NCBI GenBank assembly: GCA_013154235.1
Contig: JAADCV010000002.1
Location: 1-57,469 of the forward strand
Length of the DNA: 57,469 nucleotides
Direction of reading: 5' to 3'
Source: Thermoproteota archaeon
Lineage (GTDB): Archaea > Thermoproteota > Thermoprotei_A > Sulfolobales > Ignisphaeraceae
Below are positions 792 through 22,769 of this stretch, piece by piece; position 1 is the first letter of the stretch; every line of letters begins with the position of its first letter. A model generated the notes under the pieces. It saw only the letters and a program-made list of their open reading frames with translations. It had not been told where the DNA came from and made no database searches. The position numbers and the translations under genes were made by a program.

Positions 792-1466
792 GGTTGGTCT
801 AGAACCGTCGCTAGCTACTGCAAGAGGTCGACAATCTACTTGTCAAGGTCTTTCAAGGTTCTTGAGAGGCTGCTTAAATGGAATAGAGAGTAATGTAGGC
901 TGCTGCTTCCGGAGAAGGAGGTCGTATACGTAGTGAGATCGGTGTTTAGTCATAGGTACAAGCCCTATCTAGATGCAAGGCGAGGGAGTGGCTTCATAAC
1001 GTGCTTGACTCCTAAAGGGGGGCCGGGGATGATGAGCAGCTTGGGAGGCTTACCCGCGAGGGGATGAGCGAGATCAGGTGTGCTGGCCCTTCCCGACCCC
1101 TCGATCTCTTCGCGCTACTGGCTTATGAGTTACTTGCGTCTCCAGCGATGAGCTACGGTGCTGGAGACACATATCTATGCATTGTGCATACGGCGTACGG
1201 AGCCTGGGACTGCATTTGTTAGTTTCCTGAGTTCGCGACGCGGCTCGGTCTCAGGTATCTCATTAATGCTGTAAGTATCCTTGGTATTCTCAATTTGCTC
1301 TCTACTCTCTTTTAGCATATCGCCTTAGTGTTTGGGGGTCTACGGCTCGGGATATCCTCGATAGCAAGAGTGTAAAGAGGACTTAGCTGAGGTGATGAAA
1401 CATGGGTAGGAGCTGATGAGGAAATGAAGGGGTTGCAAGGGGTTTGTTAGTATAGCAAGGATCTCT
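792..1466. other. Gap with decayed open stretches
   Basis: No convincing intact gene. Around 1095-1220 a plus-strand frame reads an uninterrupted peptide of about 40 residues (LDLFALLAYELLA) that looks protein-like but has no clear start. C-box-like words (ATGATGA near 1029, GTGATGA near 1392) occur without properly spaced D boxes. The region continues the gene decay seen upstream. Confidence 0.3.
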
Positions 1467-5729: not shown

Positions 5730-6242
5730 ATGACTCCGGCTCTATCGATGAAGCGCGTGGAGTACGTGAATGCAATGCGCGAGGTGGCTAGGAGCTTGGA
5801 TGTTGTGCTCGAGAACAGCATTAGGAGGTCTATCTACGAGTACACGCTCGCTAACGGCTTTGCGGTATTTAACGAGATCTGGAAGGCTCTAAAGAAGTCG
5901 AAAGCCACTATTAACTGGCACATAAAGATTCTCAAACGGAGCGGCATCGTGGAGGAGATAAGGCTGCTTAAGTACCGCATCATATACGTGAAGAGGTTCG
6001 AGCACGTCGCCATAAAGAGGTTTCTCTGCGAGAAGAAGCCTAGCGGTGGCTACAGATGGGAGAGGATAAGGAGGCTCCTAACGGACCTCTGCTACAACGA
6101 TGATATCGAGAGTCTAGCCGGTAGATACGGGTTGAGCAGCGACGAGGTTGAGGGGCTCAAGAAGCTGCTGAACGCGTTTGTCGACGGGGCTCGCGGCGCT
6201 GCATGCGCTAGGAAGCTAGCTAGGTTATCCTGTAGCGAGTAG
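5730..6242 (+). CDS. Winged-helix (ArsR-like) transcriptional regulator
   Basis: This 170-residue protein has a winged helix in its first half: SIRRSIYEYTLANGFAVFNEIW, then KSKATINWHIKILKRSGIVEE as the recognition helix and wing. The C-terminal half is helical and charged, with a second HTH-like stretch (SLAGRYGLSSDEVEGLKKLL). A few cysteines lie in the second half but form no clear motif. It lies between an AT-rich control region and the convergent hypF gene, whose 3' end it overlaps by 18 bases. Autoregulation through the 5437-5498 repeats is possible. The ligand is unknown. Confidence 0.75.
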   Translation: MTPALSMKRVEYVNAMREVARSLDVVLENSIRRSIYEYTLANGFAVFNEIWKALKKSKATINWHIKILKRSGIVEEIRLLKYRIIYVKRFEHVAIKRFLCEKKPSGGYRWERIRRLLTDLCYNDDIESLAGRYGLSSDEVEGLKKLLNAFVDGARGAACARKLARLSCSE

Positions 6243-10739: not shown

Positions 10740-10794
10740 GGCTCAGCCCCTAGAAACATCATCACGGCTCAGCGAGCTGCAACATCATCACCTA
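10740..10794 (-). ncRNA. C/D-box guide sRNA (strong)
   Basis: On the minus strand the order is C box GTGATGA (10791-10785), a 12-nt guide TGTTGCAGCTCG, D' CTGA (10772-10769), 3-nt spacer, C' GTGATGA (10765-10759), a 12-nt guide TGTTTCTAGGGG, and D CTGA (10746-10743). All four boxes are perfect and both guides are exactly 12 nt, the archaeal standard. It lies about 60 bases upstream of the ATPase gene on the same strand. Targets should be rRNA or tRNA, but I cannot place them by memory. Confidence 0.9.
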
Positions 10795-10930: not shown

Positions 10931-10987
10931 GCTATGATGGAGACTCCGGGCACTGAGCGGTGATGATTTCAACGGCTGCCTGAGCCC
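10931..10987 (+). ncRNA. C/D-box guide sRNA (strong)
   Basis: Order: C box ATGATGG (10934-10940, one mismatch), 12-nt guide AGACTCCGGGCA, D' CTGA (10953-10956), short spacer, C' GTGATGA (10960-10966), 13-nt guide TTTCAACGGCTGC, D CTGA (10980-10983). It lies just upstream of the alcohol dehydrogenase gene, and the TATA-like CTTTATC for that gene starts about 10 bases after the D box, so the two may be separate transcription units. Confidence 0.85.
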
Positions 10988-19850: not shown

Positions 19851-21497
19851 TTGAGGAGGGTAGTGTTCAGGATCAGCGAGTGGATAGATAGGGACGACTT
19901 CGCTAAGCTCATGAGGTTCTGCAGGTACCTAGGGAGAGACGGTAGCGCTAGCGTCTTCGAGGTGGATCTCAATAGGCTAGCTGCATCCATTAGGGAGGGG
20001 GAGCTGAGGCCCGAGGAAGTGCTTGATCTCGTCGAGGGGTACGAGGCTGAGTTCGAGGAGGGTAGCCTCGAGGATCTGGAGAGGCTTGTTGAGGAGTACA
20101 TGCCTAGGGTCGTGGTTAGGAGGCTGGGCAAGGAAATCATCTTCGAGCCTAGGGCATACCTAGGGGATGCTGTTAGAGATCTTCGCGAGGCTGGGATCCT
20201 TAGATACGATAGGGATAGGAGAGTGTTCGTGCTCGTCAAACCCATGTACCTCTTCGAGGCCATGAATAGGCTGAGGGCTAGGGGGATACGGGTCGTCGAC
20301 GAGACTGGGATCAAGCCTAGGCAGGAGCTTCCCCTAAAGCTATCGTTTAGAGGCGAGCTAAGGCCTTACCAAGCAGAGGCTCTGGAGAAGTGGAGGGGGA
20401 ACGGGTATCGAGGCGTTGTCTCGCTACCGACGGGCTCGGGCAAGACCATCGTTGCTATAGCTGCCATAGCCGAGCTGAGCGTTAGAACCCTCATCGTTGC
20501 GTTCACTAAGGAGCAGATGTTTCAGTGGAGAGACAAGATACTGGAGTTCACCGACGCTCCGCCAAACATGGTGGGGCTGTTCTACGGTGAGGAGAAGAGG
20601 GTTGCGCCCATAACCGTAACTACGTACCAGTCGGCGTTTAGGTACATAGACCAGCTCTACCCCTACTACAGCTTCCTCATAGTGGACGAGGTCCATCACC
20701 TCCCGGCTGAGAAGTTTAGGTACATAGCTGAGCACAGCGTAGCCATATACCGCATGGGGCTCTCAGCCACGGTTGTTAGGGAGGACGGTAAGCACGTGGA
20801 GCTATTCCCGCTTATGGGAGGGCTAGTGTATCACAAGAGCGCTAGCGAGCTAGCTGAGGAGGGCTACCTAGCTAGGTACAAGCTGATAGTTATCAAGGTT
20901 GATCTAACGCCAGAGGAGAGAGCTAGGTATAGGAAGCTCTTAGACGAGTACCGGAAGCTTGCTAGGGGTAGAACCTTCGAGCAGCTCCTAGCTGCTGCAA
21001 GGCATGGAGATGCCGAGGCGATCAAGGCGATAAAGATAAGGACCGAGATCAGGCAGCTAGTGCACAACGCTAGGAGAAAGATCGAGATCGTGCAGAAGAT
21101 AGTGAGCGAGGAGCTCCAGAAGGGAAGCAAGATCCTCGTCTTCACCCAGTACGTCGACCAGGCTAAGAAGCTAGCTGAGATCCTAGCAGCTCCATACATA
21201 ACTGGGGAGCTCGACGAGACCACGAGGAAGGCTAGGCTGGAGGCCTTCAAGGCCTCGAAGAGCGGAGTCCTCGTTCTCACAACAGTTGGAGACGAAGGGA
21301 TAGACATCCCCGATGCTAACGTGGGGATCATAGTTGCAGGCACCGGCTCGAGGAGGCAGTACCTCCAGAGGCTAGGTAGGTTGCTTAGACCAGCTCCGGG
21401 TAAGGAGGCTAGGCTCTACGAGATAGTGGTTAAGAATACGTTCGAGGAGTTCGAGTCTAGGAAGAGGAGAAGCGTTCTAGCATCGCTAGGCATGTGA
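19851..21497 (+). CDS. xpb: XPB/Ssl2-type DNA helicase
   Basis: The 548-residue SF2 helicase has, in order, an N-terminal damage-recognition-like region (about 1-170), motif I LPTGSGKTIVA, motif II (VDEVHH), motif III with the adjacent RED triplet (GLSATVVREDGKH), and motif VI (RRQYLQRLGRLLRP). DEVHH and the RED element are typical of archaeal XPB. It acts in repair and possibly transcription-bubble opening. In many archaea it pairs with the nuclease Bax1, which is not adjacent here. The TTG start at 19851 gives MRRVVFRISEW. Its stop codon lies inside the C box of a guide RNA. Confidence 0.92.
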   Translation: MRRVVFRISEWIDRDDFAKLMRFCRYLGRDGSASVFEVDLNRLAASIREGELRPEEVLDLVEGYEAEFEEGSLEDLERLVEEYMPRVVVRRLGKEIIFEPRAYLGDAVRDLREAGILRYDRDRRVFVLVKPMYLFEAMNRLRARGIRVVDETGIKPRQELPLKLSFRGELRPYQAEALEKWRGNGYRGVVSLPTGSGKTIVAIAAIAELSVRTLIVAFTKEQMFQWRDKILEFTDAPPNMVGLFYGEEKRVAPITVTTYQSAFRYIDQLYPYYSFLIVDEVHHLPAEKFRYIAEHSVAIYRMGLSATVVREDGKHVELFPLMGGLVYHKSASELAEEGYLARYKLIVIKVDLTPEERARYRKLLDEYRKLARGRTFEQLLAAARHGDAEAIKAIKIRTEIRQLVHNARRKIEIVQKIVSEELQKGSKILVFTQYVDQAKKLAEILAAPYITGELDETTRKARLEAFKASKSGVLVLTTVGDEGIDIPDANVGIIVAGTGSRRQYLQRLGRLLRPAPGKEARLYEIVVKNTFEEFESRKRRSVLASLGM

Positions 21498-21548
21498 TGA
21501 GGCGCTTTAGGACTGAGGAGTGATGATAATCGGCCTCTGCTGATCTAT
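21490..21548 (+). ncRNA. C/D-box guide sRNA overlapping the helicase stop codon
   Basis: C GTGATGA (21494-21500, containing the helicase TGA), 12-nt guide GGCGCTTTAGGA, D' CTGA (21513-21516), spacer, C' GTGATGA (21520-21526), 13-nt guide TAATCGGCCTCTG, D CTGA (21540-21543). Every box is perfect. The D' guide is complementary to CCTAAAGCGCC, which I recall from archaeal 16S rRNA near E. coli position 570 (GGCCTAAAGCGCCCG). That makes 16S the likely target. It runs tail to tail into another sRNA on the minus strand. Confidence 0.92.
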
Positions 21549-21602
21549 CAGCAATTGGTCGGCTCATCACTTCCTCAGCCTCGAAGAACTTCATCACCAG
21601 CC
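21543..21602 (-). ncRNA. C/D-box guide sRNA, convergent with the previous one
   Basis: Minus strand: C GTGATGA (21597-21591), 12-nt guide AGTTCTTCGAGG, D' CTGA (21578-21575), 4-nt spacer, C' GTGATGA (21570-21564), 12-nt guide GCCGACCAATTG, D CTGA (21551-21548). All boxes are perfect and spacing is canonical. It lies about 30 bases beyond the stop of the radical-SAM gene on the same strand, so it may be processed from that message. Its D box is only 4 bases from the D box of the opposing sRNA. Confidence 0.92.
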
Positions 21603-21626: not shown

Positions 21627-22769
21627 CTACCTACTTATATCCCTCCAGAGGAGCCCTAGCGAGTCCGCGTAGCTGTACGCCTCCTCGAGCTCTCTAGGCC
21701 TAGGCCTTCGAGCGATGTCCCTGTAGCTATAGGCTCTGTGCTCCGGTCTGTACTGATCCATTATGTTCACTAGGACTCTATCCCTAGGCAGGTTATCGGC
21801 TATCATCTTGAGCACGGGCTTGGTGCAGCACTCTACGTGGTTAGGCAGCACGAGGTGCCTAATGATCATGTCCCCCCACTCGGTAGCTACCCTAAGGTTT
21901 CGAACCACGGTCTCTACGTATCTATCGACTCCGGATAGCCTCTTGGCGCACTCGTCGTTTCCGTACTTGAAGTCTGGGAGCCAGATATCCATCACGTGAA
22001 TCAGCAGCTCCATGGTCTCCGGAGTCATGTAGAAGTTGCTGTTCCACAGCTGCGCTATGTTCACGTCTAGGTACTCGAGGCTCTCGAGTACGGTGTGGGT
22101 ATTAGGTATGGGGTCTCCGCCAACGTGATTAATGTTCCTAGCTCCCCTAGAGGCGAGCTCCTTCTGTATAAGCGCTAGCCTCCTAGCATCAACCACAGCC
22201 CCTTCCCGGGGACTAACCTGCGAGATGTCCCAGTTCTGGCAGTAGACGCAAGCGAAGTTGCACCCACCGTAGAAAATGGTTCCGCTGGGAACGAGTGGAG
22301 CTTCCTCGCCTAGGTGTAGGAACCAGCTATGCACGTAGGTCCTTCCATCCACTCTGCAAGCCCCTATCGCTCCCGAAGCCCTATCAACGCCGCACCTACG
22401 CTCGCAGAAGCAGCACCTCCTAATTATCCTACGCGCTATCTCAGCCTTTAGAGTCACGAAGCTTGGGCTTGCAGACCCGTACCTCTGGACGAACTCGCTG
22501 TACCTAGTCCCCTCCTCCCTAACCTCCCTCCACCTAGACTCGAACTCGCGAGCTAGAGCTCTGTGAAGATCCCAGAGCTCCTCTAGCGAAGCCCTAGAGA
22601 TGTCCGCCTCTACAGGTATGCTCCTAGCGATCACGAACTTCGCTGGGTAGCCCTCGAGAAGAACACTGTAGTACCACCTTAGCGCGCTCCTAAACGTCTC
22701 GTTGTGAATAGCCTCGACTGCATCCGGCCTAACCAAGTGCCAGTACCTCTCCCGATCCCACCAAGCCAC
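21627..22769 (-). CDS. Radical SAM protein of the PFL-activase-like group
   Basis: The 380-residue protein has the SAM cluster motif in GGCNFACVYCQNWDISQ (C-x3-C-x2-C) near residue 175, preceded by a four-Cys region (CCFCERRCGVDR...GAC) that may bind zinc or another cluster. CNxxCxxCQNxxIS is typical of the archaeal pyruvate-formate-lyase-activating-enzyme-like family, related to AmmeMemoRadiSam proteins. The first 120 residues are an extra helical domain. Its substrate is unknown. It is a single gene convergent with the helicase, with two guide RNAs between. Confidence 0.8.
   Translation of the reverse strand: MAWWDRERYWHLVRPDAVEAIHNETFRSALRWYYSVLLEGYPAKFVIARSIPVEADISRASLEELWDLHRALAREFESRWREVREEGTRYSEFVQRYGSASPSFVTLKAEIARRIIRRCCFCERRCGVDRASGAIGACRVDGRTYVHSWFLHLGEEAPLVPSGTIFYGGCNFACVYCQNWDISQVSPREGAVVDARRLALIQKELASRGARNINHVGGDPIPNTHTVLESLEYLDVNIAQLWNSNFYMTPETMELLIHVMDIWLPDFKYGNDECAKRLSGVDRYVETVVRNLRVATEWGDMIIRHLVLPNHVECCTKPVLKMIADNLPRDRVLVNIMDQYRPEHRAYSYRDIARRPRPRELEEAYSYADSLGLLWRDISR

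Follow-up and report, generated by a model that had tools for sequence, protein, structure and literature searches.

Two C/D box sRNA genes arranged tail to tail in a convergent gene gap of an Ignisphaera-family genome

Two C/D box sRNAs face each other tail to tail in the 57,469-nt stretch of DNA analysed here (the window), which is contig C38 of a MAG (G000; 1.6 Mb, 107 contigs, 79% complete). It is very probable that these RNAs, A and B, are ordinary archaeal C/D box sRNAs, independent of one another, that came to face each other because gene 3′ ends and convergent gaps are where C/D genes settle in this lineage. This reading draws on their boxes, their positions, their homologues, the complementarity of their guides to the rRNA of relatives and the lack of conservation of the pair. 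It provides two more guide RNAs with predicted targets for an uncultured genus of the Ignisphaera family whose C/D sRNAs of strict consensus are plentiful, as well as a small test case of C/D gene movement, since the gene ends at which the same guides are found differ between sister species.

Boxes, flanking genes and chance controls

The original prediction called for two C/D box sRNAs with four exact boxes each and guides of 12-13 nt, and pattern matching bore this out. A (21494..21543, + strand) reads GTGATGA ggcgctttagga CTGA gga GTGATGA taatcggcctctg CTGA, with box C at 21494-21500 (GTGATGA), box D′ at 21513-21516 (CTGA), box C′ at 21520-21526 (GTGATGA) and box D at 21540-21543 (CTGA). 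B (21548..21597, − strand) reads GTGATGA agttcttcgagg CTGA ggaa GTGATGA gccgaccaattg CTGA, with box C at 21597-21591, D′ at 21578-21575, C′ at 21570-21564 and D at 21551-21548. All eight boxes are perfect: the RUGAUGA (C/C′) and CUGA (D/D′) motifs of the class follow one another in due order with no mismatch, and the guides (12 and 13 nt in A, 12 and 12 nt in B) agree with the usual length of about 10-12 nt. The tail-to-tail arrangement was likewise confirmed by the coordinates, as only 4 nt (TCTA, 21544-21547) separate the D boxes of A and B. An Rfam scan of the window returned no family at the gathering score; according to PMC7994747, the C/D class is under-represented in annotations, hence an Rfam match is not a defining feature.

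Both D boxes are contained in the predicted palindrome, TGCTGAT-CT-ATCAGCA (21538..21553), which as RNA would form a 6-bp hairpin of about −7 kcal/mol at 37 °C. Since two facing CTGA boxes necessarily yield CTGA...TCAG, this palindrome is largely forced and only three more pairs per arm are free. It is thus mostly a side effect of the facing boxes, and the hairpin could matter in precursors. Overlap between the mature 3′ ends of A and B is no more than a possibility.

The two flanking ORFs converge on the pair. An XPB/Rad25-like helicase gene (19851..21497, + strand; Pfam ResIII, ERCC3_RAD25_C and Helicase_C) ends within A, its TGA stop codon (21495-21497) lying inside the C box (21494-21500) exactly as anticipated. 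On the other side, B follows a gene coding for a radical-SAM protein (21627..22769, − strand; Pfam Radical_SAM), also as anticipated, its C box beginning 29 nt past the stop (21627); its closest matches are genes of Desulfurococcales and Ignisphaera MAGs. Upstream of B, where a promoter was looked for, we found GATATAAG, and the same letters encode the residues DIS near the C terminus of the radical-SAM-side protein. A would probably be transcribed with the 3′ end of the helicase mRNA and B with the radical-SAM mRNA; L7Ae, Nop5 and fibrillarin would bind at the boxes of both RNAs, and nucleases would trim each to about 50-60 nt.

Twenty order-2 Markov simulations of the window, totalling 1.15 Mb, contained no four-box match, either perfect or with one mismatch, and in the G000 genome strict C-D′-C′ and D′-C′-D patterns gave 54 and 73 matches, respectively, compared to none for the reversed patterns. 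The 54 matches against no reversed ones, together with the empty simulations, establish the A/B pair as real sequence structure; a chance origin of the box patterns is excluded, and the pair is one of many such genes in G000. The same strict pattern matched 61-75 times in each of G000, G001 and G005 compared to 14-26 times in genomes of the Ignisphaera-like genus g5, which reflects either more sRNAs or stricter boxes in the former three. Patterns as strict as these miss some sRNAs whose boxes are imperfect, chiefly in AT-rich relatives.

Guide targets and homologues in relatives

The 16S and 23S rRNA genes are absent from the G000 MAG and from the same-genus genomes tested; for this reason, guide targets were judged on the rRNA of relatives from the same family. 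The D′ guide of A (21501..21512, + strand) forms 11 contiguous Watson-Crick pairs with Ignisphaera-family 16S rRNA at GCCTAAAGCGCC, a match equalled by 0 of 300 shuffled guides, and its N+5 nucleotide corresponds to E. coli A572, in keeping with the prediction that one guide would fit 16S rRNA near position 570. The D guide of A (21527..21539, + strand) has a probable 16S target at GAGAGGCCGA (N+5 at about E. coli G666), with 9 contiguous pairs in the relatives that 51 of 300 shuffles equalled, a match not significant alone. This target gains support from its position 94 nt away from the A-D′ target and from D guides of other families that pair with adjacent 16S sequence: C/D-like sequences from two other families also carry the D′ guide of A, together with D guides that pair with 16S rRNA just downstream of the A-D target. 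Since the 16S rRNA of G045 itself gave a differing motif, GCTTAAAGCGCC, when the A-like ortholog was checked, 16S genes other than that of G045 served to assess the D guides from these families. The recurrence of the D′ guide with such D guides supports a predicted conserved double guide for the A572/G666 region of 16S rRNA. A would direct 2′-O-methylation at approximately these two positions; it may also hold the two nearby 16S segments during folding.

The D guide of B (21552..21563, − strand) forms 10 contiguous Watson-Crick pairs with the relatives' 23S rRNA at AAATTGGTCGGG, equalled by 2 of 300 shuffles, and would direct methylation of 23S rRNA at this site, for which poor alignment makes the E. 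coli numbering uncertain. For the D′ guide of B (21579..21590, − strand), no target was found, the relatives' 16S and 23S rRNA giving no significant match (282 of 300 shuffles did as well). Comparison of A-D, B-D′ and B-D with the 30 tRNA genes of G000 itself gave nothing convincing; tRNA targets proposed for B-D′ in a first pass were rejected, as the matches fell in flanks outside the tRNAs. Alignment of the guides to rRNA, suggested at the outset as a check and carried out here on the rRNA of relatives, thus returned complementarity with the N+5 nucleotide paired that is significant for A-D′ and B-D, probable for A-D and lacking for B-D′.

Both sRNAs have homologues with the same guides in G001, a genome of the same genus. 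The homologue of A is on contig C60, with both guides 83% identical. The homologue of B is on C227, with D′ and D guides 67% and 91% identical, the core of the D guide kept and 80% blastn identity over the RNA (E 6e-5); a different ORF ends within it, with the stop codon in the C′ box. Given that the two homologues are on separate contigs and not tail to tail, each guide is conserved, unlike their pairing. Comparison of the gap with close relatives, likewise suggested at the outset, showed no such pair in the relatives looked at. Conserved synteny of the gap was considered and rejected, since the helicase and radical-SAM genes of G001 are on different contigs and no sRNA adjoins either; in the same-genus or near relatives looked at, no sRNA was found downstream of the helicase gene or of the radical-SAM gene (loci L059 and L060).

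Frequency and origin of tail-to-tail pairs

Placement at gene ends is common among the 27 G000 sRNAs that we examined: 12 lie at the 3′ end of a same-strand gene, whose stop codon is part of the C box in 4 cases, and opposite-strand gene ends occur near the D box in 14 of the 27. A search for two facing half-sRNAs in 214 genomes of the order revealed symmetric facing pairs in G000 (the window pair), G001 (n = 4), G007 (gap of 13 nt), G029 and G039. The four G001 pairs carry other guides and are located on C399, C417, C481 and C502, with D-box gaps of 8, 7, 8 and 3 nt, respectively. If sRNAs were placed uniformly, G000 and G001 would be expected to hold 0.008 and 0.007 pairs within 10 nt, against the 1 and 4 seen; tandem and head-to-head sRNA neighbours also exceed the uniform-placement expectation. 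With settlement allowed for and the gene count assumed to be roughly one per kb, a rough estimate comes to 0.39-0.78 tail-to-tail pairs in G000 and 0.35-0.71 in G001. Within 100 nt, G000 has two tail-to-tail pairs, which is unremarkable against this estimate, and G001 has five, which is still above it. Settlement in convergent gaps thus explains one pair per genome and does not fully explain four. In the C481 pair, both sRNAs hold the stop codons of convergent genes in their C boxes; the C399 and C502 pairs are not between convergent gene ends. The latter observation, the four further tight pairs of G001 and the D′ guide of B that lacks a target count against settlement of ordinary C/D genes as the explanation. 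The excess of pairs with gaps of 3-8 nt in one genome offers a lead on how new C/D genes originate or end.

Such an excess could also mean that the tight layout is selected in the genus, the D-box palindrome hairpin marking or shaping the 3′ ends of both precursors, with each trailer masking its own D box until trimmed. Five pairs with gaps of 3-8 nt in two genomes compared to about 0.015 expected under uniform placement would fit this idea, as would the 6-bp hairpin of the window pair and the 7-bp arms of the C502 pair (GTCTGAT-C-ATCAGAC). However, the other three G001 pairs hold little beyond the box-forced 4-bp arms, the partners are not conserved as pairs, and placement preference covers much of the excess, so that we regard selection of the layout as improbable. 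It is just as improbable that tight pairing is a recurrent selected architecture of the genus in which facing D boxes serve as a shared bidirectional 3′-end element.

Inverted duplication was raised as a possible origin in the original prediction; the pair would then derive from a single sRNA gene whose copies diverged in their guides. Although A and B share the identical run CTGAGGA(A)GTGATGA, it is almost wholly box sequence, and the homologues of A and B in G001 are on different contigs. Moreover, guide identity is 0.42 for D′-D′ and 0.25 for D-D compared to a random mean of 0.27; because the guides of A resemble those of B no better than random guides do, a recent inverted duplication is disfavoured. 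From the sequences compared, this origin appears largely refuted, and we consider it very unlikely. Mutual antisense regulation between A and B, or between their precursors, is equally unlikely: read-through of either transcript would produce a full-length antisense RNA to the other, and the 4-nt gap is such that the tails of the mature RNAs could have a few nucleotides in common, but with short tails the mature overlap would be limited to a few bases and the pairing of A and B is not conserved. Cross-regulation of processing found no support, and the arrangement is not conserved in the relatives. The data require neither inverted duplication nor antisense regulation. The original reading therefore held for the two C/D sRNAs, for the helicase stop inside a C box, for the location of B after the radical-SAM gene and for the 16S target near 570, whereas inverted duplication and cross-regulation found no support.

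Known systems and other C/D loci

Archaeal C/D sRNA clusters or dicistronic units have reportedly been described by Tripp et al. in 2017. According to PMC7994747, such clusters and units likewise place two or three sRNA genes near one another; unlike dicistronic units, A and B are on opposite strands, making co-transcription impossible. The same review reports that 25% of archaeal C/D genes overlap a gene 3′ end and that in about half of these the stop falls within the C box; most are devoid of their own promoter, maturation depending on the boxes and not on the flanks. The A/B pair fits this pattern and shares with archaeal C/D sRNAs the overlap with a gene 3′ end, the stop codon of the gene falling within the C box (PMC7994747). 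In boxes, spacing, guide lengths and predicted N+5 targets in 16S and 23S rRNA, A and B match the methylation-guide sRNAs of the sR families, from which the RNAs themselves do not differ as those are presented in the accessible parts of PMC7994747 and PMC4644070. The same parts of the two papers make no mention of two C/D genes packed tail to tail 4 nt apart. With guides fitting 16S sites 94 nt apart, A resembles the double-guide C/D sRNAs for two nearby rRNA sites presented in the available text of PMC4644070, from which it differs in that its second target (about G666) is only moderately supported.

Several other C/D loci were observed. A candidate symmetric facing pair at G029:C5:13737-13797 and G039:C128:8184-8245 is kept in two genomes of one genus from another family. 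The G000 sRNA at C24:61711-61760 (− strand; locus L152) resembles by eye the minus member of the G001 C399 pair (D′ guides GCCTCCACCGGCT and ACCTCCACCGGCT) and stands without a tail-to-tail partner among the listed G000 matches. Within the window, a D′-C′-D match at 1387-1416 (+ strand), CTGAGGTGATGAAACATGGGTAGGAGCTGA, is missing a good C box upstream, and a divergent C/D pair occupies 10743-10791 (− strand) and 10934-10983 (+ strand), 142 nt apart, the plus-strand member having one C-box mismatch (ATGATGG). At locus L148 (G000:C14:24802-24897, − strand), four C/D units carrying four guides follow one another in a chain with separations of 1-3 nt, an arrangement that would represent either two abutting sRNAs or one four-guide RNA. 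Possible shorter chains occur at C11:27212-27273, C17:5510-5568 and C25:5546-5605 in G000 and at G002:C153:11832-11888. Finally, L060 (G001:C170) carries two perfect C/D sRNAs head to head at 5744-5841, their C boxes abutting as TCATCAC|GTGATGA, and three further perfect C/D sRNAs within about 2 kb.
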